Under the pieces are notes generated by a model. It ran no database searches. It was not told the origin of the DNA and was given only the letters and a program-made list of their open reading frames with translations. From positions 1-36,493 of IMG/VR virus record IMGVR_UViG_3300025141_000324: DNA of 36,493 nucleotides; one strand, written 5' to 3'. Below are positions 23,566 through 36,493 of this stretch, piece by piece (positions within the stretch are counted from its first letter, which is position 1; the number at the start of each line of letters is the position of its first letter). The translations under genes and the position numbers were made by a program. The stretch is from a virus.

Positions 23566-26500
23566 ATGGCAAAGGAACAGACTTTTAATTCACCAGGTTT
23601 TTTCGAAAGAGAGATTGACCTATCAGGGCGTAAAGAAGAACCACTAGGGGTAGCATGTGGTATTGTCGGTACCGCGAAACGTGGTCCTGCATTTGTACCC
23701 GTAACTGTTGGATCATTTGATGATTTTGAATCTAAATTTGGTGGTTTAGATTCTACACGATTTGGACCGTATGCAGTTGAGAAATTTTTTGAAGCAAAAA
23801 CAGGTCCATCAGCAGTAACATATGTGAGAGTACTTGGCGCCGGCGCAAATTCAACTACTACAGATTTTAAAAATACAAGAAATAAAGGCATTGTTAAGAG
23901 TGCAGGTTTTAAGGTTGCAGGTACTGCTAATACTGATTATAGTGGGCATACAGGTGTTGCACAATTCCTAGTTGCCCGTCACTTTGTAAGTGCTTCTGAG
24001 GCACACTGTAATCCAGAATTTACGGATAATAATAGTTTTTTCCAAGGAAATCACTCCGACAAGAATCAAGTTCATCTTGTTAGGGCAGTATTATTCACGG
24101 CTAGCGGTACGAGATTTCAGGTAACAAGTTCTGGTTATAATATGTCTAATTATGATCCATCTCCTGCCAACGACCAAGCAAAACATCATAATTATAACCT
24201 TGCATCCCCCGCTGCTACAGATAATGATTATTATAAAGAAGGTGAATTCCTGCTTATACTATCGTCATCAGCAAATGGAACGTGGAAAGAGGGTTCTGGC
24301 GCAAATGTTAAAAATGGTCTTAGGGTTTTAACCGCATCACTCAACCCGGCAAGTCCAAATTATGTTTCACGTATTCTTAATACTGACCCATCTAGGTTTA
24401 ATAAGGAAGAACACCTATTATATGCGGATTTTGCAGTTGAACAGGAAGTGGCGGCAGTTGATACTACACTTTATAATAATGAAGCCGGTGACCACCACCG
24501 TGGTGCATTTTCTGTAGCACTTTGTTCAGGTTCTGCAGGAACTTCTAGTACATCAGGTCATACTACTTTAACGTGGCGTGAGGCATATGGGCGATTTGAT
24601 ACAAGGTATACAACTGCCAGAACAACAATGTTTATATCGCAACCTTACGGTAAAAAAGAATATGATTTATTCTACCTGGAGGCACTTGATGATGGTGCAT
24701 ATCCTAACGAAAAATACAAGTTATCTATATCAAACATTCAGGCCTCAACGGATCCAAATGATCCTTATGGCACTTTTACTGTTGAAGTTCGTGATTTTTA
24801 TGACACGGATAGAAATACCCAAATTTTAGAATCATATCCTAAGTGTAATCTCAATGCAGGTTCAGATCAATATGTTGCAAAAGTGATTGGTGATAAAAAA
24901 GCATATTTTAAATTTGATGCTGAAGATGAAGATGAACGTAGATTGGTTACAACAGGCAAATACCCGAATAAATCATTAAGGATTAGGGTTATTATGAGTG
25001 ATGAGTACACAAACGGTGCAGTTCCATTAACTGCGGTGCCATTTGGCTTTAGGGGTGTACCAACGTTATTAACAAATACAGGTTTGTCTGATGATAAAGC
25101 CTCCCCAGGTGGAATCCGTCTTGGGATGTATGTTTCTGGGTCACGGGTATCTGAATCACCAGCTGGAATCTATAATCATTCATTAACTGGTTCAATTGTA
25201 CCTCCGTTACCCTTTAGGGTAAAGTGTACTAGAGGCCAATGGCTATCTGATCTTACGGCAGATAAAGCCAATCCTTCAGGCATGCTAGGTGATCCCGGAC
25301 CTACGGAAACACATGATAAACGCCTATATTGGGGTGTTAAATTTGAACGTGTTCCAATTAGTGGTAGTGATACTGACGGAAAATTAAAGAATGCTATTTT
25401 ATCCCCAAATGAAGGAACTTTACCAAATGCCTGCGTTTCGGCATATACAAAATTCCTAGGTATTAAAAAACTTGATGTATTAGTAACAGGTACAAAGAAG
25501 GATGAATTTAATAATAATAAATTCACACTTGCCAGGGTTGCACTTGGTAACTTAAATCTTGATGATATTACCGGTTCAGCTGACCAACATATGTTAGAAG
25601 CATCCTATCATAGAAATGGTACTGTACATCCAACAAAATATACGATTACAGATGATATTGATACAGAGGCTAATAAATTAACGTTTGCAGCAATATTGCA
25701 AAGTGGATCAGTTAATACATTTAATAGATTTAGGGATTATGCTAAATTTAATACGATTTTTTACGGTGGTTTTGATGGTGTTAATATCTTAGATAAAGAT
25801 GCGGCAAAACTTAATGATAGGGCATCTTCAACAGTCGATGGTGGTAATGCTTATGCTTCGAGGGCTGCATATTCTGGATTGTCGGCAAATGTTGAAGGAG
25901 TAGGCATGAAAAATAATGCTGTTGCATCCATTAAATCAGCAGTTAATCTTATAACAGAAAGAACATATGTTGACGTTAATATTGTGACAATCCCTGGCAT
26001 ACGTGAAAAAAAGATAACTGATTATGCATCACAACGTGTTAAGGATTATGCATTAGCATTCTATATTATGGATATGCTAAGTTATGATAAGGATGATACG
26101 AGGTTATACACAGATTCAAAGAATCGACCGGATGTCAAGAAAACAGTAAATCAATTTGCAAATCGTGGAATTGACAATAATTATGTTGCAACATATTTCC
26201 CAGATGTAACAATTGTTGATAAGGAAAATGGTGATAGACGTGTTAAGGTACCTGCCTCAATTGCAGCTCTTGGCGCAATTTCATTCAATGATGCAAATAA
26301 ATTCCCGTGGTTTGCCCCTGCCGGTTTTAATCGTGCATCACTAGATTTTGTAACAAATGTTAGAACACGGTTAAATGCAACAGATAGAGATGATTTGTAT
26401 CTTGAAAGAATTAATCCAATTGCAACATTCCCCCGTCAAGGATTTGTAATCTTTGGGCAAAAAACATTACAGCATGCAAAATCTGCACTTGATAGGGTTA

Positions 26501-26805
26501 ATGTTAGAAGGTTAATGATTGAAGTTAAGAGATTGGTTATAAATATTGCCAGAAGTTTTGTTTTTGAACAAAATACCCCTTCAACCCGTGCAAGATTTGT
26601 GAATAGGATTGTTCCAATTTTAGCATTAATACAGGCAAATGCAGGTATAGAGAATTTTAAGATTGTTATGGATGATTCAAATAATTCACAAGAAGACATT
26701 GAAAACAATATTTTAAATGGTAGAATAGTCGTTGTACCTACCAGAGCAGTAGAATTTATAGCAATTGATTTTATTATAACAAATGCGGGCGTAGAATTTG
26801 TATAG
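23566..26805 (+). CDS. Tail sheath protein, paralogue 1 (gp18-like)
   Basis: A 1079-residue sheath protein; T4 gp18 is 659. AAGGAG precedes ATG. The N-terminal domain starts FNSPGFFEREIDLSGRKEE and includes GIVGTAKRGPAFVPVTVGSF (about 33-52). The conserved C-terminal region spans about residues 730-1079, with FYGGFDGVNI, FPWFAPAGFNRA, QKTLQHAKSALDRVNVRRLM and QANAGIENFKIVMDDS. The sheath polymerises around the tail tube and contracts at infection. The extra 400 residues lie in the middle (about 100-720), the region that forms outward domains in T4 gp18. A second full-length paralogue follows immediately. Confidence 0.95.
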   Translation: MAKEQTFNSPGFFEREIDLSGRKEEPLGVACGIVGTAKRGPAFVPVTVGSFDDFESKFGGLDSTRFGPYAVEKFFEAKTGPSAVTYVRVLGAGANSTTTDFKNTRNKGIVKSAGFKVAGTANTDYSGHTGVAQFLVARHFVSASEAHCNPEFTDNNSFFQGNHSDKNQVHLVRAVLFTASGTRFQVTSSGYNMSNYDPSPANDQAKHHNYNLASPAATDNDYYKEGEFLLILSSSANGTWKEGSGANVKNGLRVLTASLNPASPNYVSRILNTDPSRFNKEEHLLYADFAVEQEVAAVDTTLYNNEAGDHHRGAFSVALCSGSAGTSSTSGHTTLTWREAYGRFDTRYTTARTTMFISQPYGKKEYDLFYLEALDDGAYPNEKYKLSISNIQASTDPNDPYGTFTVEVRDFYDTDRNTQILESYPKCNLNAGSDQYVAKVIGDKKAYFKFDAEDEDERRLVTTGKYPNKSLRIRVIMSDEYTNGAVPLTAVPFGFRGVPTLLTNTGLSDDKASPGGIRLGMYVSGSRVSESPAGIYNHSLTGSIVPPLPFRVKCTRGQWLSDLTADKANPSGMLGDPGPTETHDKRLYWGVKFERVPISGSDTDGKLKNAILSPNEGTLPNACVSAYTKFLGIKKLDVLVTGTKKDEFNNNKFTLARVALGNLNLDDITGSADQHMLEASYHRNGTVHPTKYTITDDIDTEANKLTFAAILQSGSVNTFNRFRDYAKFNTIFYGGFDGVNILDKDAAKLNDRASSTVDGGNAYASRAAYSGLSANVEGVGMKNNAVASIKSAVNLITERTYVDVNIVTIPGIREKKITDYASQRVKDYALAFYIMDMLSYDKDDTRLYTDSKNRPDVKKTVNQFANRGIDNNYVATYFPDVTIVDKENGDRRVKVPASIAALGAISFNDANKFPWFAPAGFNRASLDFVTNVRTRLNATDRDDLYLERINPIATFPRQGFVIFGQKTLQHAKSALDRVNVRRLMIEVKRLVINIARSFVFEQNTPSTRARFVNRIVPILALIQANAGIENFKIVMDDSNNSQEDIENNILNGRIVVVPTRAVEFIAIDFIITNAGVEFV

Positions 26806-26850
26806 GATATATTTAATTGTAGATAAGGTAATGAATTTAGGAGTGTGAGT

Positions 26851-29800
26851 ATGCCAACAAAGGTATTTAAAAGTCCAGGAGTTTTTGCTAGTGAAATTGA
26901 TGAATCACAACCCACATCTGAAACGATTCAAGGTGTCCCAGCCGGCGTTATAGGAACGTCCGAGACGGGACCTGCATTTGTTCCGGTGACAGTTGGTAAT
27001 TTGGCTAGTTTTAAAGCTGTATTTGGTGATGTTAGAACAACAACAAATATTAATTTTTATGGTGCTATGGCAGCAGGTGAATATTTACGAAATGCAACAG
27101 CACTTACATATCTCAGGGTAATGGGTGTTGGTGATGGTAAAAAGAATTTAACTAGTGATGATACGTCTGTATCAGATCCAGAAAATAGAGTCCTCGCCGG
27201 TGGTGTAAAGGATGCTGGATTTATAGTTGGTGAACGCCAACCAGTGGATAACGGTAACCTTGGGGATAATACATATGCAACCTCTAACGGTGATAAGGGC
27301 AGGACATATTTCCTAGGTTGTTGGTTGTCAGATTCTGTAGGTTCATCACTATTAAGGGACCAGGGACAATATGATTTCTTCTGGGAAGATCCACCTGGCG
27401 AGACAACAAACGAAATGACATGTTCCATACCAATTATACGTGGTGTGTTGATGGCGGCTTCTGGTGTTATACCAAGATTATCATCCACACTCCCAAATTG
27501 GTCATTAAAAGCTCTTGCAGTTGATGCTCATAATTTTGGGCAAGGTAATTCACCCACTCCAACGTTAACCGGTAGTACATTAACACTTGCTGGTGATGTT
27601 AATCCACAAATTGCAGGTAAGATGTCGGGTACTGTTCAATTAGCTGACGGCGGTGCATCATTTCAATTAATATTAAATGGTTTTCAAGGTGAAGATGCAA
27701 CTGATTTTGATGACAAGATTCTTAGTTGTTCATTTAATGATAAGGATGCAAATTATTTCCCGAAAGTTCTTAATACCGTACCGAAAGATTTTCAAAAGAC
27801 AGGCCACCTTTTATATACATGGTATGATATACCAACGGCTTATGCAGCGGTTACAGGTAGCGGGATAATGCGAATTGAGGCCACAAATTATAATGGTGCC
27901 TCTGGCTCACATGAAAATATTGCATTTTTAATGACAGGTGCCTTAGCAAGAAACGCAGGTAGCACAACAGTACCAAACTATGAAGGATTTACTGATAGAT
28001 ATAAACATGCAAAATCACCGTGGTTTGTATCACAAAAATTTGGTGGTATTCATCATAAATTATTTAAAGTACATCAACTTGATGACGGTGCTAATTCTAA
28101 TCCTATTGCAAAATTATATGGTTATAGTGACAAATATAAGATTTCAATTACTGCCTTAAATAAAGCTGCAAAAACATTTTCCCTTCAGCTTAGAAGGTTT
28201 GAGGATTTAGATAGTGTAAAACCATTACAGCAATATAGAAATCTAAGCTTAGATCCAAATAATGCAAGGTTTGTAGGCAAAATTATTGGTGATACATATG
28301 TGTATTATGATTTTGATCAGGCGGAAAATTCACAAAAAATAGTTGTAGAAGGTAATTATCCCAATACTTCAAGGTTTATACGACTTGAATTAGCTGAAGG
28401 ATTGTTAAATGGTGAAGTACCGATAACAGCGCTGCCATTTGGCTTTACAAGTATTGATCACTTGTATACGTCTGGTGCACTTTCGTGGAACGAGGATTGG
28501 TCTACACTTCATTCAGCGTCAGATGGAGATGCCCATCAAGCCGGTGCATATAAAGGAACCACCATTGTTGATATGTTGAAATCTGCAAGGATTCCAGGTA
28601 TACCTTTTAGGGAGAACCTTAGGACGGTAAAATTATCTGATGCAAATGATAGTAATTTTGATTTGAATTATTATTGGGGTGTACAGGTTCATCGAAAAGC
28701 AAAGGTTGAACAACCAAATGCAGCAACAGCAACCGGTGATCAAAATTACACAGCAATTGATGCAACTGTAAGATCATATACAAAGTATTTCCCAAATTTT
28801 GCCTCCGCAAATAAGAATGTATTAGTTGAAGATACTGCGGAATCAACATCGACAGCATTTGGCAAAAATTACTTTACATTAGAAAATATTCAGGTTCCAA
28901 CTGGGTCTGACGGCAAAGCGGATCATAAAAACGTTTACTTATGGAAGTATGTAAGAGACGGTAATGTATCAACTAATGGTAGTAAATCATTTGATCTTGA
29001 TGATCTTGACCTTGCAAGTAATGTAAAATTTGCTAAATATACAACAATTATGCAGGGTGGGTTTAATGGTGTTAATGTATTTGATACTAATATGCGTGAT
29101 TTAACAAATGCCACAATTAAACATGAAATGGATAATGCTTCAACCCGTGGTGGAAAAAATGGTCGAACAGTTTCTGCATACAAAAAAGCATTAGACGTTA
29201 TTGGTAATACAGCGGATGTTGATATTAAATTACTTGCAATACCAGGTATTAGACATGCAGTGGTTACTGATGATGCAATAAATACTGTTGAAGATAGATT
29301 TGATGCAATGCTTATACTTGATGTTGAAGAAAGAGATGATATGGACACTGTTGTAACAGGTTCTAAACAAAAACCAAATGTAAGTGTTAAAAATACAGTG
29401 AAGTCATTTAGGAATCGTGCACTTGATACAAATTTTGCTGCTGCATATTTCCCAGATATTTCGTTGAATGTGTCTGTGTTTGATCAAAAACTTAAAAAAT
29501 CGGTATCAACAATTATTGATTATGTCCCACCAACGGTCGCAGTACTAGGCGCATATGCACGAAATGATTTATTAGGTCATCCATGGTTTGCACCTGCAGG
29601 TACTAATAGAGGCCAATTGGAAAAGGCTACCGATGTTAATGTTAAGATGAATGATAAAAATAGAGATGATTTAGCAAGCGTTGATATTAATGCAATTGTG
29701 CAACAAGCTGGTGATGAGGTACCAATTATATTTGGGCAAAATACCTTGCAAACAGCAAATACGTCACTTGATCGTGTTAATGTTAGGCGCCTGTTAATTG

Positions 29801-30078
29801 AGATTAGGCGTGAAGTTAAACGTATTGCAAATCGTTTACTTTTTGAACCTAATAGGGCATCTACACTTGCAAGATTCTCTTCACTAGTGAATCCTATTTT
29901 GGCTGATATTCAGGCAAATGCGGGTGTTGATAGATTTAAAGTTATTATAGATACAACGACAACAACACAAGCTGATGTTGAAAATAATACAATACGTGGT
30001 AAAATATTTATTCAACCAACACGTACTGCAGAATTCATTTCATTAGATTTTGTTGTTACAAATACAATACAGGAATAA
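26851..30078 (+). CDS. Tail sheath protein, paralogue 2 (gp18-like)
   Basis: A 1075-residue paralogue of the preceding sheath. I chose the ATG at 26851: TTAGGAG (26837-26843) is seven bases upstream, whereas the in-frame GTG at 26845 is too close. Conserved features are at nearly the same residue numbers: SPGVFASEIDESQ, GVIGTSETGPAFVPVTVGNL, MQGGFNGVNVFD (about 732), HPWFAPAGTNRGQ (about 910), SLDRVNVRRLLIEIRREVKR and QANAGVDRFKVIID. The middle has diverged strongly. Both copies retain complete N- and C-terminal polymerisation domains, so neither looks like a pseudogene. The two may mix in one sheath, or one may act in a special ring. The tube gene follows after 69 bases. Confidence 0.94.
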   Translation: MPTKVFKSPGVFASEIDESQPTSETIQGVPAGVIGTSETGPAFVPVTVGNLASFKAVFGDVRTTTNINFYGAMAAGEYLRNATALTYLRVMGVGDGKKNLTSDDTSVSDPENRVLAGGVKDAGFIVGERQPVDNGNLGDNTYATSNGDKGRTYFLGCWLSDSVGSSLLRDQGQYDFFWEDPPGETTNEMTCSIPIIRGVLMAASGVIPRLSSTLPNWSLKALAVDAHNFGQGNSPTPTLTGSTLTLAGDVNPQIAGKMSGTVQLADGGASFQLILNGFQGEDATDFDDKILSCSFNDKDANYFPKVLNTVPKDFQKTGHLLYTWYDIPTAYAAVTGSGIMRIEATNYNGASGSHENIAFLMTGALARNAGSTTVPNYEGFTDRYKHAKSPWFVSQKFGGIHHKLFKVHQLDDGANSNPIAKLYGYSDKYKISITALNKAAKTFSLQLRRFEDLDSVKPLQQYRNLSLDPNNARFVGKIIGDTYVYYDFDQAENSQKIVVEGNYPNTSRFIRLELAEGLLNGEVPITALPFGFTSIDHLYTSGALSWNEDWSTLHSASDGDAHQAGAYKGTTIVDMLKSARIPGIPFRENLRTVKLSDANDSNFDLNYYWGVQVHRKAKVEQPNAATATGDQNYTAIDATVRSYTKYFPNFASANKNVLVEDTAESTSTAFGKNYFTLENIQVPTGSDGKADHKNVYLWKYVRDGNVSTNGSKSFDLDDLDLASNVKFAKYTTIMQGGFNGVNVFDTNMRDLTNATIKHEMDNASTRGGKNGRTVSAYKKALDVIGNTADVDIKLLAIPGIRHAVVTDDAINTVEDRFDAMLILDVEERDDMDTVVTGSKQKPNVSVKNTVKSFRNRALDTNFAAAYFPDISLNVSVFDQKLKKSVSTIIDYVPPTVAVLGAYARNDLLGHPWFAPAGTNRGQLEKATDVNVKMNDKNRDDLASVDINAIVQQAGDEVPIIFGQNTLQTANTSLDRVNVRRLLIEIRREVKRIANRLLFEPNRASTLARFSSLVNPILADIQANAGVDRFKVIIDTTTTTQADVENNTIRGKIFIQPTRTAEFISLDFVVTNTIQE

Positions 30079-30147: not shown

Positions 30148-30636
30148 ATGGCTGAGATTCTTACCGTTGAACAAATGTTGCCAAATAAATTTGAGCCTAA
30201 ACGAAAGTTTAGATGGATTATGGCAATTGAAGGTGTTGATGCATATTTGATGAAAACTTCCGCAAGACCACAAATGACTTTCGAGGAAATTACCCTTGAT
30301 TTTATTAACCATAGAAGATATTTGGCTGGTAAACATTCATTTGCAGATTTAGCGGTTACACTTTACGACCCAATTGCACCATCTGGTGCACAACAAGTAA
30401 TGGAATGGATTAGATTAAATTTTGAATCTGTTTCAGGTCGTAGTGGTTATGCTGATTTTTATAAACGTGATATCCAATTAAAGTTATTGGATCCAGTTGG
30501 TACAGTTGTTGAATTATGGGACATTAAAGGTGCTTGGTGTAAAGACATTAACTTTAATGATTTGGATTACGCAGCAAATGAAGCTACGGAAATCGCACTT
30601 ACCGTAAGATATGATAACTGTGTATTACAATATTAA
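30148..30636 (+). CDS. Tail tube protein (gp19-like)
   Basis: A 162-residue protein, essentially the length of T4 gp19 (163). It has the family features: FEPKRKFRWIMAIEGVDAYL near the N terminus, ITLDFINHRRYLAGKHSFAD in the middle and YADFYKRDIQLKLLDPVGTV followed by VELWDIKGAWCKDINFNDLD toward the end. Hexameric rings of this protein stack to form the inner tail tube through which DNA passes. The Shine-Dalgarno is one of the strongest in the window (AGGAGG at 30135-30140, seven bases before ATG), fitting high expression. Its place after the sheath genes matches the T4 order 18-19. Confidence 0.95.
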   Translation: MAEILTVEQMLPNKFEPKRKFRWIMAIEGVDAYLMKTSARPQMTFEEITLDFINHRRYLAGKHSFADLAVTLYDPIAPSGAQQVMEWIRLNFESVSGRSGYADFYKRDIQLKLLDPVGTVVELWDIKGAWCKDINFNDLDYAANEATEIALTVRYDNCVLQY

Positions 30637-30814: not shown

Positions 30815-31675
30815 ATGTCAGAAGTTCGTGAATCTAATACTGTATTCGCTGATAATAAACATGAAGATAGATCAGCAATGCCGGGACCAATTCCACAAAA
30901 ATCAAAAGATGATTTTGGTTTTGACATTCCAATTGAATCAATTCCATTACCATCACTTGGTAAGGTTTACCCATCCAGTTCTGCACTTTGTAATAGGGAA
31001 TCGGTTGAGATTAGGGCCATGACGGCAAAGGATGAAGATATTTTAATGTCTCGTGCCTATATTAAAAATGGAACTGTAATTTCAAAATTACTTGAATCTT
31101 GTATTGTTGATAAAGATGTAAAAGTAACAGAGATGTTATCAGGTGATAGAAATGCACTTATGATTGGTTTAAGAACAATTGGTTATGGTGCAGATTATCG
31201 TGTTGAAGTAGAGTGTCCGGAGTGTGAACATAGAAATACGGCTGAGTTTGATTTAACAAATGTTCCAATCAAGCCATTGGATATTGAGCCGGTTGATAGT
31301 GGGGAAAATGTATTTGAATTTACATTGCCCGTGACAAAACATAAAATAGAATTTAAATTTTTAGCAGGTGGTGATGAGGAAGAGATTTCAAAAACACAGG
31401 AACGCAAGAAAAAGAAAGGCTTTGTTGCGGAATCAGTAGTTACAACACGATTGCTTTACAATATTGTTTCTGTTAACGGTGATTCTAATCGTACAAAGAT
31501 TGCACAATACACAAGAAATATGTTGGCCAGAGATTCACTGGCGCTACGAAAGTATGTTGATAAACATGAACCAGGTGTTGAATTATCTGATTATATGACA
31601 TGTGCCGCTTGCGGAGAGGAGTCCAAGGTGAATATTCCCCTTGGAGCATCGTTTTTTTGGCCTGACACCGAATGA
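30815..31675 (+). CDS. Baseplate/tail assembly chaperone (gp26-like), zinc-binding
   Basis: A 286-residue protein of the T4 gp26-type baseplate family, with IPLPSLGKVYP (about 43-53) and VEIRAMTAKDEDILMSRAYI (about 64-83). Two cysteine pairs, C134-x2-C137 (CPEC) and C263-x2-C266 (CAAC), suggest one zinc ribbon made from distant parts. In the genes before tape measures such proteins act as tail assembly chaperones that bind the tape measure. Its last codons overlap another ORF, and a run of seven T (31652-31658) lies 15 bases before its stop. This suggests that some ribosomes shift frame to make a longer fusion of about 365 residues. AAGGAG stands six bases before ATG. Confidence 0.78.
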   Translation: MSEVRESNTVFADNKHEDRSAMPGPIPQKSKDDFGFDIPIESIPLPSLGKVYPSSSALCNRESVEIRAMTAKDEDILMSRAYIKNGTVISKLLESCIVDKDVKVTEMLSGDRNALMIGLRTIGYGADYRVEVECPECEHRNTAEFDLTNVPIKPLDIEPVDSGENVFEFTLPVTKHKIEFKFLAGGDEEEISKTQERKKKKGFVAESVVTTRLLYNIVSVNGDSNRTKIAQYTRNMLARDSLALRKYVDKHEPGVELSDYMTCAACGEESKVNIPLGASFFWPDTE

Positions 31676-31913
31676 TAGAGAACACCAGCTAGAACAGATA
31701 TTTTTATTAATATACTATGGTGGACTTACGTATACAGAATGCCGTTTGATGCCAATTAGTTATAGGGATTGGTTTTTGAAAAGAATTGGCGCGGAAATTG
31801 ATAAATCCCAAGGTAATCAATCAAAGGCAATACACCAAAATACCCCAGAAGTAAATACGCTTACAGGTAAACATAGGCCAAATCCACCATCTAGGCTAAG
31901 ACGGTTTACATAA
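31641..31913 (+). CDS. Frameshift extension of the tail assembly chaperone
   Basis: An ORF of 90 codons, open from 31632, that overlaps the end of the gp26-like gene. It lacks an ATG near its start; the only early start is a TTG at 31641 with a modest AAGGTG ten bases upstream. The product from the T-run onward is FFGLTPNDREHQLEQIFLLI then YYGGLTYTECRLMPISYRDW and FLKRI, which looks like the helical second domain of tail chaperones. Relative to the upstream gene it is in the +1 (equivalently -2) frame. Geometry, overlap and position right before the tape measure resemble the G/GT arrangement of lambda and the -2 shift of Mu. The fusion is inferred. Confidence 0.65.
   Translation: MEHRFFGLTPNDREHQLEQIFLLIYYGGLTYTECRLMPISYRDWFLKRIGAEIDKSQGNQSKAIHQNTPEVNTLTGKHRPNPPSRLRRFT
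31652..31658 (+). other. Candidate slippery site for programmed -2/+1 frameshift
   Basis: Seven consecutive T (zero frame TCG TTT TTT TGG). A tRNA-Phe on TTT could re-pair after moving two bases back or one forward, giving TTT GGC CTG in the downstream frame. The zero-frame stop follows at 31673-31675. Confidence 0.6.
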
Positions 31914-31976: not shown

Positions 31977-32258
31977 ATGATTGATGATTCAAAAAAATAC
32001 AAAAAAATAGAGAGTGTTGAGAATATTTTTTATGAAGGTATTCTAAACTGCCTTGAAACAGGTAGCGCAGGGTTTGGTATAAGGGGAGATAACAATAAAA
32101 TCAAGGCACTTAAGAGTGCATTAAATTCTTCAAAAGATTTTTTAAATGAATTAAATTCCAATAATACTTCACTACAATTAATAATGGAAAAATTGAAATA
32201 TAAAAATAAATGTGTACGTGAATTTGAAAATATTACAGGTCTTGACTGGCCTCTATAA
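31977..32258 (+). CDS. Small helical protein before the tape measure, unknown
   Basis: A 93-residue protein beginning MIDDSKKYKKIESVENIFYE, mostly helical and charged, ending in the more conserved-looking REFENITGLDWPL. The ribosome site is weak (GGGAT). No family is recognised and no cysteine, membrane or signal features are present. It is 63 bases after the frameshift ORF and 22 bases before the tape measure. A tail assembly role is plausible from context only. Confidence 0.55.
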   Translation: MIDDSKKYKKIESVENIFYEGILNCLETGSAGFGIRGDNNKIKALKSALNSSKDFLNELNSNNTSLQLIMEKLKYKNKCVREFENITGLDWPL

Positions 32259-32280: not shown

Positions 32281-35200
32281 ATGGCAAAAGATGATCTAGG
32301 CAAAAACGCTCAGTTTCAACGAGAAATAAATAAATTATTAGCAGCTCGTTTAGAAATGTTACGTGAAATGGATGAAATTTTACGTAGTCAATCAGATCTA
32401 TCTGAAAAAATGCGTGAAACCCTTGAAGATACTGATGTTGGGGCTTTAGAGGATCAATTTGGGGATTTACGTGGTGCAATTTCAGATGCAGCTGATGAAG
32501 CAGAAAGACTAGATGGTGCAAAATCTGGCGGTGGTTTATTTGGCGCGAAACAACAGTCACAAGGATTTTTCTCTGGAGCAAAGTCCGGATTTAAGAGTAT
32601 GACTGGTTCAATTGCCAAGGCAGCCATGTCTGTTGGTAAACTTGCATGGAGCATTGGCAGTAAATTACTCAGTGTTGTTAAGGGAACCATCGGTATGGCC
32701 TGGAAATTATTTAAAGGCCTAGCAGGTATAGTTTGGGGTGTAACAAAGTCAGTATTATCATTGGCTGCTTCACTTACAAAGGTTGCGGCCACAATGGCAG
32801 TTGGTATTCTATCAGTACCCTTTAAGATATATAAAGGTCTCATTGCTGAGGCAACACAGGCCGGTGGTGGCTCACAATATGCAATTGCAAAACAAAATAT
32901 AGTTAAGGCGTTCGGTAATCTAGCTGGTGAGTTATCTACAAGTGTTTTCAAGGGTTGGAAAGGTATGCGAAAATCATTAAGTCGCTTTGGCCGGTCCGCC
33001 GGTGAATCACTTGATGAGTTCAGGGAAAGGGTGGCAGAAGGTTTAGGACCTACATTATATGGGTTAAGAGATCAAGTCAAAGATAATGGTGATCAATTTT
33101 ATGCGCTTGTTATGGGTTTAAACCTAAGTAAGGAGGCAACCGCAGGTCTTGGTGCACGCATGCTTTCTTCAGGAAAGTCAATAGGCCAAATGAGTGTTGA
33201 GGTCACGAAACTAGCAAAGACATTTTCGTTTATTACAGGTAGTTTTAAGGTCATGGGTAAAATGATCATGGAGGCTGCTGGTGACTTCAAAAACTTTGGT
33301 ACATTGAGTATTGAAGCCATTGCCAAGTCAACGGCCTATGTAACCGCTCTAGGACTTGAGATGAAGGAAGTCCTAGGTATATTGGATGCATTTGATGATT
33401 TCCCTGATGCTGCAAAGAAAGTTTCACAATTATCACAGGCATTTGGTATGCATGTTGATGTACTTGAGATGATGAATGCCCAGGATCCTGCATCTAGGTT
33501 TGATGCGCTTAGAAAATCATTCCTTGCAACCGGTAAGAGTGTACAAAACCTTACACGACAGGAATTAAAGTTATTGGCCGCACAGACCGGTGTCAGTGAA
33601 AAGGCAATTAAAGTTGGATTCTCCCAAAAGAACCAAGGTTTAACACTTGATCAGGTAAACAAGAAAGCGGCAGAAGGTAAGAAAAAGACACTATCACAGG
33701 CCGAGGCAATGGAAAAACTTGCCAAGGCAATTGAACGCATGGTGAAATCTGGGTCACGTCAAGGTGGTATCTTTGCAAACTTCTTACGTGGCTTTACTGT
33801 TGGTGTAAAACGCAGTAAAGAAATGAGAAAAATGTTTAGGGATATCCGCAAAATTATTAGGGTTGCATATAGGGCAGGAAAGAGGTTAGGTAAACTATTC
33901 GTAGCAATCTTTCCAGGTGTTAAGGAATTTCTCAGCGGATACCAGGGTTTATTTAATGTAGGACGTTGGAAAAAGGCATTCCGTTCACTTGATGATGTTT
34001 TTAGAAGATATGCGGCAGATCCTGCTAGAAATTTTAATATACTTTCAGAAGGTGCAATGAATTTCTTTAAAATAATTTTTCCAGAAAGCGTCCTTAAGGG
34101 TTTCCGGATTGGTTTTACTGCCTTTGGCAGGATTTTTACAAACATCATTGCCGGCATGCTCAGATGGATTATTGAAGGTCTAACCAAGGTTATGAAAGGT
34201 ATGGTAAGATTTTTATCTGATCCTGCGTATAGGAATGGTTTTCTTGATTCATTAAAAAATGGTTTTGGTGCAGCAGGAAGCGCGGCTGGTGATATGTCAT
34301 CCCAAATTCTTCAACCACTCGTGGAAGTATTTACTGATGCTAGTCTTATTTCTGGGTTTACTGAAGCTCTTTTTGCTCTAGGCGATGCAATATATAAACA
34401 TGCAATTGTGCCATTCGGTCAATGGATTGCCGACAAAGTCAGGGGTATGATAAACTGGACATTTGGAACTGATTTTAAGGATTGGAAGGAGATTGGAAAA
34501 TTTCTTCAAGCATCATGGGATAAGGCAAAATCGAAGATGATGGACGCGTTTAATGAGGTCGCCAAGCCCATGAAAAAAATAGCCGATGCAATGATAGAGT
34601 GGGGCCCAACGATACTGGTGTTAGTTGGGGCGCTTAAAGCTCTTCAATTCGCAATTGCCGCTAATACGTTGGCTAACAAATTTGGTAGAGGTTTTGGTTT
34701 ACCAGGAGGCGGAGGCATGCCACGCGGTGGAGGTGGGCAAATGTCGCTTCCTGGTATGGCCCCAGCCGCCGGTGCGGGAATTTCTATGGCTGTTGTTGGT
34801 CCCGTTGCCATCGGTGCCGCCCTGGTTTATGCGGGAGTTGAGGCATATGGTGCCTGGGTTGATTCTAAGGTCGAAGAGTCAATGGCAAAAACCGACAAGT
34901 TTATCGCTGAGCAGGAAGCCATAAGCGTCTGGAAGACATCACAGGCGGATAAAAAGATAGAAGAATTAAAAAACAAGGTTATAAAATTTAGGACTGAACT
35001 TGGGCGATTAGTCCCACCAGAAACCAAGAAAAAGGTTGATAAAGTGTCAGCCTCGATACGATTGTTGAATGCCGCTGTTGCAGGTGCTACCACCGCCAGA
35101 GGAAAGAAACTCGCCTCGAATCTTAAATCAAATTTACACACTGTAACAAGAGAGGCCGCCACATTCCACGCTCAAAAGAGAATCAAACGGTTACCTACTG

Positions 35201-36493
35201 GTGGACACTTTTCTCGCCACAGGTACACTCTCAAAGATTTGAATGTCCATGAAAGAACAGGAAACTATGGCAAGAAGTTGGCCGCGAATTACCGGGAAGT
35301 CGCAAAGTCTCTCACCACCATGCCAATGGATAACTTCAGAAAACTCGATAAAGGTATGCAAGCCACCATTGTAACGATGGGCAGGTTGCACAAAACGGCC
35401 AACTACAAACGCCGGCGAGGTAAGTCCACCACCCACGAGTGGAAAGAAATGGAACGGATCTATAAGTCTAAAATTGCACCTATATACATCAGGGTGACTC
35501 AGGATGCCAAGAAACTCCAAGACATTATGAAAACAGGGGATATGAAAGCGTTCCAGAAAGAATTCCGAAAAATGGGAAAAGAGATGTCTTGGACCCAGCG
35601 GAACGCATTAATATATGGGGCCGCTGCCAGTGAACACTTCTCACCTGGTAGGGCCAAGGCAATGCATCATATCAATAATCAATTGGCTGAATATTGGAAT
35701 TTATCGGTAAAATTGGATAAATACAAGCAAGCATCCACGGCCGGTACCGAGTCGCTCAATGAATGGCAAAACAACCAAAAATCGCTTGAAAGAAACCAGA
35801 TTGCCTTAAAGGAATATGCCACCATAATGGGCCTTGTTGGCCGCGTCGATGACAAACATGCAAATAAAATGCAGAAATCCATGACAGCCATGGGCACCGG
35901 ATTAAAATATGTTGAAGAGAATGCAGCAAAACTGCAAGCCTCCATTAAGAAAGCAGCTACATTGAAAGATCCTGATGCCATCTCCAAGGCCTGGGCAGGT
36001 ATAAACAAACAACTGTTCGCAATGGAGGATCACATTAAAAAGGATCAAAAAAATATTGATAAGTACTCCTCCTCGACCGGTTATATCGTGGCCCTTGCCA
36101 AGGCATCAACAGTGTCAACAGATCCTAAAACTAAAAAAATGGTCCAAGGTCGTATCGAAGCCTATATTTTGAAGCAAGCTGAAAAGGAATTTAAGAGCAT
36201 CGAGGCAGAAGGGCTGATGAGAGATTATATCGGTGTCGGTTATGATCCAACGGACAAAGACGTTCAGACCAAGGAATTACAGAGGCAGCTACGAGCTGCG
36301 GTATTAAAAAATCAACAATTGTTATTTAAGCATATTGTAGGCACACAAAAGAAAGGTAAACCAGGCGCCCCTGGAGTCTCTGCCATGCGACCAGAAGTCA
36401 GGAGAGTAAAGGCTATTGTTGATACAACACCGAAGGCTCTTCTTGATCGTGCAAATCAAATTATGGAAATCGTTACGAAGTTCACGGCCTTCT
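32281..36493 (+). CDS. Tail tape measure protein (3' partial)
   Basis: The frame from ATG 32281 is open for 1404 codons and runs off the right edge, so the gene is incomplete. Residues 1-60 form a charged coiled coil (KNAQFQREINKLLAARLEML). A hydrophobic, glycine-rich, membrane-like stretch spans about 110-185 (for example SLAASLTKVAATMAVGILSV), and another lies near 830-860 (AGISMAVVGPVAIGAALVYA). The rest is long, helical and rich in K, A and M. Size, hydrophobic islands and position after the tube and chaperone genes define a tape measure, which sets tail length and helps DNA cross the membrane. No peptidase or lysozyme domain is visible in this part. The ribosome site is weak. From about 33,000 onward the GC content is clearly higher than elsewhere in the window. 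Confidence 0.9.
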   Translation, partial: MAKDDLGKNAQFQREINKLLAARLEMLREMDEILRSQSDLSEKMRETLEDTDVGALEDQFGDLRGAISDAADEAERLDGAKSGGGLFGAKQQSQGFFSGAKSGFKSMTGSIAKAAMSVGKLAWSIGSKLLSVVKGTIGMAWKLFKGLAGIVWGVTKSVLSLAASLTKVAATMAVGILSVPFKIYKGLIAEATQAGGGSQYAIAKQNIVKAFGNLAGELSTSVFKGWKGMRKSLSRFGRSAGESLDEFRERVAEGLGPTLYGLRDQVKDNGDQFYALVMGLNLSKEATAGLGARMLSSGKSIGQMSVEVTKLAKTFSFITGSFKVMGKMIMEAAGDFKNFGTLSIEAIAKSTAYVTALGLEMKEVLGILDAFDDFPDAAKKVSQLSQAFGMHVDVLEMMNAQDPASRFDALRKSFLATGKSVQNLTRQELKLLAAQTGVSEKAIKVGFSQKNQGLTLDQVNKKAAEGKKKTLSQAEAMEKLAKAIERMVKSGSRQGGIFANFLRGFTVGVKRSKEMRKMFRDIRKIIRVAYRAGKRLGKLFVAIFPGVKEFLSGYQGLFNVGRWKKAFRSLDDVFRRYAADPARNFNILSEGAMNFFKIIFPESVLKGFRIGFTAFGRIFTNIIAGMLRWIIEGLTKVMKGMVRFLSDPAYRNGFLDSLKNGFGAAGSAAGDMSSQILQPLVEVFTDASLISGFTEALFALGDAIYKHAIVPFGQWIADKVRGMINWTFGTDFKDWKEIGKFLQASWDKAKSKMMDAFNEVAKPMKKIADAMIEWGPTILVLVGALKALQFAIAANTLANKFGRGFGLPGGGGMPRGGGGQMSLPGMAPAAGAGISMAVVGPVAIGAALVYAGVEAYGAWVDSKVEESMAKTDKFIAEQEAISVWKTSQADKKIEELKNKVIKFRTELGRLVPPETKKKVDKVSASIRLLNAAVAGATTARGKKLASNLKSNLHTVTREAATFHAQKRIKRLPTGGHFSRHRYTLKDLNVHERTGNYGKKLAANYREVAKSLTTMPMDNFRKLDKGMQATIVTMGRLHKTANYKRRRGKSTTHEWKEMERIYKSKIAPIYIRVTQDAKKLQDIMKTGDMKAFQKEFRKMGKEMSWTQRNALIYGAAASEHFSPGRAKAMHHINNQLAEYWNLSVKLDKYKQASTAGTESLNEWQNNQKSLERNQIALKEYATIMGLVGRVDDKHANKMQKSMTAMGTGLKYVEENAAKLQASIKKAATLKDPDAISKAWAGINKQLFAMEDHIKKDQKNIDKYSSSTGYIVALAKASTVSTDPKTKKMVQGRIEAYILKQAEKEFKSIEAEGLMRDYIGVGYDPTDKDVQTKELQRQLRAAVLKNQQLLFKHIVGTQKKGKPGAPGVSAMRPEVRRVKAIVDTTPKALLDRANQIMEIVTKFTAF

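Follow-up and report, generated by a model that had tools for sequence, protein, structure and literature searches.

Putative programmed frameshifting in the gp26-family tail assembly chaperone of a T4-type phage and its relatives

Genomic setting of the gp26-family gene and its overlapping reading frame

This study analysed one stretch of viral DNA of 36,493 nt (positions 1 to 36,493 of IMG/VR virus record IMGVR_UViG_3300025141_000324), referred to here as the window, in which the structural module of a T4-type myovirus was recognized, including a T4-type terminase, a gp20-type portal and a gp23-type capsid protein. Two tail sheath genes, each encoding about 1078 aa, stand in tandem (23566-26805 and 26845-30078), and in both of them the phrog_23 match was restricted to the C-terminal third. 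The gene order under study comprises a gp19-type tube gene, ORF1, ORF2, a small ORF and a very long ORF (Table 1). ORF1 matched the Pfam profile PF12322 (T4_baseplate) with E=3e-18 and 66.7 bits against a curated cut-off of 24.5, reaching the last profile position, and the criterion for membership in the T4 gp26 family is met; it also matched phrog_150 ('baseplate hub') with E=6e-23. ORF2 encodes the remainder of the chaperone and is homologous to the C-terminal domain of gp51. Family searches with the very long ORF returned no significant match, and its assignment as the tape measure gene rests on position only. The location expected of a pair of the lambda G/GT type, between the tail tube and tape measure genes, is thus met with one small ORF intervening.

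Within the window, seven consecutive T are found at 31652-31658, where frame 0 reads TTT TTT TGG CCT GAC ACC GAA TGA, and 14 bases separate the last T from the frame-0 stop. ORF2 occupies the +1 frame, which is open from 31632 to a TAA at 31911-31913; it contains no ATG, and the only near start, a TTG at 31641, is not accompanied by a Shine-Dalgarno (SD) motif.

Table 1. Features at and around the gp26-family gene of the window
Feature	Position	Strand	Basis or remark
Tail tube protein (gp19-type)	30148..30636	+	phrog_4542 E=1e-33
ORF1, G-like product, gp26-family (PF12322) tail assembly chaperone	30815..31675	+	286 aa, frame 0, C-terminus ...GASFFWPDTE
TGA in the ORF2 frame, upstream limit of ORF2	31629..31631	+	
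Putative slippery site TTT TTT TGG	31652..31660	+	near-invariant 12-nt block TTTTTTTGGCCT; entry window -2 to +12
Frame-0 stop TGA, downstream limit for the shift	31673..31675	+	
T-like extension, +1 frame	31659..31913	+	84 aa after the predicted slip; +1-frame homologues in relatives, coding signature, hhalign
Predicted fusion (GT-like)	30815..31913	+	365 aa if +1; alignment with invariant columns in both halves
Small ORF between chaperone and tape measure	31977..32258	+	no known family; conserved in relatives (L014 E=5e-13)
Long ORF in tape-measure position	32281..36492	+	>1404 aa, runs off the window; position only

Conservation of the junction in relatives and in other T4-like phages

Relatives of ORF1 are encoded by 80 IMG/VR contigs at 36-63% amino acid identity, and the junction could be read in 79 loci, the window included. 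We observed that the ORF2 homologue lies in the +1 frame in 78 of the 79, the exception being L022. An extra frame break in or after gp26 was seen in L020 and L022, which were set aside as probable sequencing errors. After dereplication to 61 sequences, the site reads TTTTTTTGG in 56, TTCTTTTGG in four and TTTCTTTGG in one, and across loci it is placed 12-24 nt upstream of the frame-0 stop. The second Phe codon is TTT in 60/61 against a background of 66-74% TTT (P 2e-7 to 4e-10) and is never TTC (0/61), though TTC makes up 26-34% of Phe codons; at Phe-Phe pairs elsewhere, TTTTTT was used in only 87 of 271, so that the conservation of the site cannot be put down to chance. Positions 0 to +11 are nearly invariant, while adjacent third positions are free to vary. 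Stops in the ORF2 frame come within 2 nt of the T-run in some loci, and when the stops in both frames are combined over all loci, entry into ORF2 is confined to -2 to +12 (about 14 nt) around the T-run.

Differences within ORF2 were distributed over codon positions 1, 2 and 3 as 574/245/1247, the mark of a coding frame. In 15 of the 79 loci, the ORF2 frame was devoid of ATG, GTG and TTG between its upstream stop and a point 45 nt beyond the site. Two further expectations for a G/GT pair are therefore satisfied, namely an overlapping second ORF in another frame without a conserved start, and a conserved slippery site ahead of the frame-0 stop in the only possible entry window. Among 57 representatives, an ATG in the ORF2 frame was found at -27 in 10 and at +18 in 11. 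In some relatives (L023, L031, L039, L062), an ATG with an SD-like motif stands 27 nt upstream of the first +1 codon, suggesting that the T part may also be made alone there.

Most claims of the original prediction, which had been made for the window only, were upheld. The gp26-like gene was said to end 15 bases after seven T, which held, the last T and the stop being separated by 14 bases; the second ORF was said to overlap it without an ATG, in a +1 (= -2) and not a -1 relation, which also held; and this ORF, for which a chaperone-like helical domain was claimed, is homologous to the gp51 C-terminus. The statement that it lies directly before the tape measure was slightly off, because the small ORF intervenes. 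Among relatives, the +1 relation is kept in 78/79 loci and T7 in 56/61 sequences. The prediction was to be refuted by relatives with a clear ATG and ribosome site or with no T-run: an ATG with an SD-like motif does occur in some relatives and several have T3 or T4 runs, and 15/79 loci are without any usual start.

The same two halves, overlapping at a Phe-Phe codon pair beside the stop, were noticed in cyanophages, the pelagiphage HTVC008M, KVP40, phiM12 and Cr30. These phages differ from the window in that the relation is -1 at U_UUU_UUC/U and the second part is 'gp51', the two being separate genes in the S-PM2 and KVP40 records. In S-PM2, syn9, P-SSM2, HTVC008M, KVP40, phiM12 and Cr30, the PF12322 gene adjoins a match to phrog_634 ('baseplate hub assembly catalyst'), this second match is in the -1 frame in 7/7, and the end of gene 26 reads T TTT TTC or T TTT TTT beside the stop. 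Of 60 distinct cyanophage-type loci, 58 have TTTTTTC as the canonical -1 heptamer and 2 have TTTTTTT, and entry is confined to 0 to +10, i.e. the heptamer itself. Other Phe-Phe pairs in gp26 are TTTTTC in 9/61, and 14/61 cyanophage-type loci have no start codon for gp51. The predicted junction peptide of S-PM2 would be TGVVSTYTLEGLQSFFR with a -1 frameshift, as against TGVVSTYTLEGLQSFFA from frame 0. The annotators of KVP40 (L123) had already noted a short ORF resembling 40 residues at the C-terminus of T4 gp51. Jumbo phages RaK2, GAP32, XacN1, Paride and Atu_ph07 also display the -1 relation, at T TTT TTC/T. In RaK2 and GAP32 (L094, L095), no tape measure gene adjoins gp26 on the same strand; the neighbour on the opposite strand encodes a virion protein, which the RaK2 record likens to a tape measure protein.

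Decoding of the junction and rival explanations

Our data very probably indicate that ORF1 and ORF2 are one gene decoded in two ways through a programmed frameshift, although this is inferred from sequence alone and without expression data. Strong support for such a frameshift, giving a G/GT-type pair in a T4-type phage, comes from the conservation, the confined entry window, the missing starts and the homology. The sequences show directly that the site is conserved, that ORF2 lies in the +1 frame and can be entered only through a narrow window, and that ORF2 is conserved as a coding frame and homologous to the C-terminus of gp51. That the shift is ribosomal and +1 is, as part of the whole explanation, held with the same high confidence, and is an inference in the absence of protein or ribosome-profiling data.

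In the proposed mechanism, most ribosomes would remain in frame 0 and stop after FFWPDTE, giving the 286-aa G-like chaperone. A minority, with tRNA-Phe on UUU in the P site and the A site still empty over the Trp codon UGG, would slip +1 at UUU_U, the peptidyl-tRNA-Phe moving from 31655-31657 to 31656-31658, and would then read GGC (at 31659), CUG and ACA into a 365-aa fusion with a small helical C-terminal domain. This fusion is presumed to be the minor product, though no data on the product ratio are available. The predicted +1 junction peptide of this virus is VNIPLGASFFGLTPNDR (~1816.95 Da, hand calculation), to which a -2 shift would add an extra F. By analogy with lambda gpG and gpGT, and without binding data, both products may bind the tape measure protein and start tube assembly; in a lambda-like view, many short copies would coat the tape measure and few long copies would recruit tube subunits.

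Re-pairing after a +1 slip is possible at all sites (UUU to UUU or UUC, CUU to UUU). The sites of cultured +1-frame members are TTT CTT TGG C in Flavobacterium immuto, TTC TTT CGT in Streptococcus GXN1, CTG TTT C in Streptomyces BRock, LuckySocke and GiJojo, and TTT TTT C in Bacillus SP-15; a joined gene annotation was looked for in the records of these members and none was there. A prfB-type site with CUU_U or UUU_U in the P site is met in 61/61 dereplicated sequences, CUU_U being the natural prfB +1 site and UUU_U that of a minority of species (PMC5009743). The other prfB-type requirement, a stop codon in the A site with an SD a few nt upstream, is not met, the A site being occupied by the sense codon UGG. 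No SD motif was found at prfB spacing, SD-like 5-mers at -21 to -30 occurring in under half of the representatives, and a search for downstream RNA structure or a hairpin stimulator revealed none (mean z -0.33); the stimulator is therefore not identified.

The same fusion could be obtained by a -2 frameshift, as in phage Mu, giving FFFGL and not FFGL, which we consider unlikely. A -2 slip also re-pairs perfectly in the 56/61 sequences with TTT TTT TGG, and a strong preference for seven T would fit it. However, in TTCTTTTGG and TTTCTTTGG it would place the anticodon on UCU or UUC and re-pairing fails, as it does at the TTTC sites of the Streptomyces and Streptococcus members; the condition for a Mu-type shift, that re-pairing be possible in all members, is not met, and +1 is favoured because it alone is open to all. 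The original prediction, which had left the choice between -2 and +1 undecided, is in this way supported with +1 as the favoured direction.

It is likewise improbable that RNA polymerase slippage on T7 is responsible, whereby a share of transcripts with six Us would encode the fusion in frame. T7 is kept in 56/61 sequences and the loss of one T would give an identical protein, but the frame relation is also kept in members with T3 or T4 runs, so that the criterion of a long homopolymer in all members is not met. Longer runs are usually needed for slippage of bacterial polymerase.

A third possibility is that ORF2 is a separate gene, translated by internal initiation or by re-initiation at or near the gp26 stop. 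In its favour are the ORF2-frame ATG codons of some relatives and the S-PM2 and KVP40 records, where gp51 is annotated as a distinct gene. On the other hand, the usual starts are absent from 15/79 window-group and 14/61 cyanophage-type loci, the positions of ATG vary whereas the slippery sites are conserved at synonymous positions, and T4 gp51 is a fused form, making this explanation very improbable. That the apparent frame break is a sequencing error or a decayed gene, as the error-prone nature of homopolymer runs and the broken look of single contigs L020 and L022 might suggest, is practically ruled out because dozens of independent contigs, and cultured phages as well, show the identical break at one and the same codon, and coding constraint acts on both frames.

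T4 gp26 and gp51 and comparison with known systems

T4 gp26 and gp51 both belong to PF12322 (8.8e-64 and 3.9e-52) and are paralogues, encoded by separate genes on opposite strands; the heptamer was looked for at the end of T4 gene 26 and is absent. The extra, T-like C-terminus of T4 gp51 showed a match to cyanophage gp51 (E 7e-8); over its full length and across the junction, T4 gp51 could be aligned by hhalign to the predicted -1 fusion (prob 98.7, E 3e-16, one pair). A direct profile match between the window-group T part and the T4 gp51 C-terminus failed (E 0.79), and the two are linked only through cyanophage gp51 (E ~1e-7 on both sides). In a tree of the gp26 domain, the +1 rows fall on one side of a weakly supported branch (79/53). 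The -1 rows are divided between two groups, and T4 26 and 51 cluster with each other next to KVP40. The long branches leave the order of events uncertain, and the ancestral direction is thus not settled; with KVP40 (-1) adjoining T4 in the tree, the simplest interpretation is that the T4 lineage lost the frameshift through gene duplication.

A bolder reading, which we regard as likely, places G/GT-type frameshifting at or near the origin of the gp26 chaperone family in T4-superfamily phages; its direction would have switched between -1 and +1 at a single conserved Phe-Phe pair, and the T4 lineage would have duplicated the gene into 26 (G) and 51 (GT). Within this reading, T4 gp26 and gp51 look like the short and the long product, each made from a gene of its own, and T4 probably replaced the frameshift by gene duplication. 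The original claim that T4 gp26 is not known to be frameshifted is refined accordingly, as T4 is not simply without the feature. T4 gp26 and gp51 have been listed among the chaperones of hub assembly, the virion lacks gp51, and the control of T4 tube length has been described as unknown in detail (PMC3004832); if the bolder reading is true, gp26 and gp51 would be the long-missing tape-measure chaperones of T4.

A 2016 review described G-T frameshifting as widely conserved in long-tailed phages except T4 (PMC5009743). With reference to the open-access literature searched on gp26/gp51 or tail-chaperone frameshifting, no report was found for the gp26 family, an absence that is only weak evidence, and a DNA-level search of phages found nothing. 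It seems, as inferred from sequence and predicted structure, that the T4 group, the exception of that review, uses G/GT frameshifting widely, in two versions present in most of the T4-type phages examined; the proposal that G/GT logic extends to a T4-type baseplate/tail chaperone is in this respect strongly supported. If true, many T4-type phages, including abundant marine ones, use this mechanism, and the annotated cyanophage 'gp51' is half of a fusion protein. The family would also provide naturally occurring examples of three solutions to one junction, a +1 shift, a -1 shift and gene duplication, together with a +1 site at which the A site is occupied by a sense codon.

The AF2 model of the window gp26 (frame 0) was confident (pLDDT 91.6), and the model of a natural T4-type gp51 (pLDDT 85.7) ends in three helices corresponding to the T-like part. 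Neither model had a significant Foldseek match in the PDB, and the fusion sequence matched none of the solved chains. When the Foldseek candidates for the gp26 model were aligned with VIA-align, the HK97 tail assembly chaperone 2OB9 came first (Z 5.1, 89/107 residues, 4.9 A; Foldseek E 5.1), a weak result since Z<8 may reflect a common arrangement, and this fold likeness is possible but no more than a hint.

Comparatively, the ORF1/ORF2 pair resembles lambda gpG/gpGT in its place between tail tube and tape measure, its overlapping ORFs, its conserved slippery site near the frame-0 stop and its C-terminal extension domain, but the protein belongs to the T4 gp26 family without a detectable gpG sequence match, and the shift would be +1 at UUU_UGG, not -1. 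With T4 gp26/gp51 it shares PF12322 and the T-like C-terminus of gp51, whereas T4 has two genes on opposite strands and no heptamer. The likeness to prfB (RF2) lies in the P-site CUU_U or UUU_U and the +1 slip, the sites of immuto and L048 (CUU UGG C) being one base off the prfB site CUU UGA C, while the window site differs in having neither an A-site stop codon nor an SD at prfB spacing. For their counterparts of G/GT, the tail chaperones of HSTV-2 and of actinophages likewise use +1 frameshifting (PMC5009743, PMC10885494).
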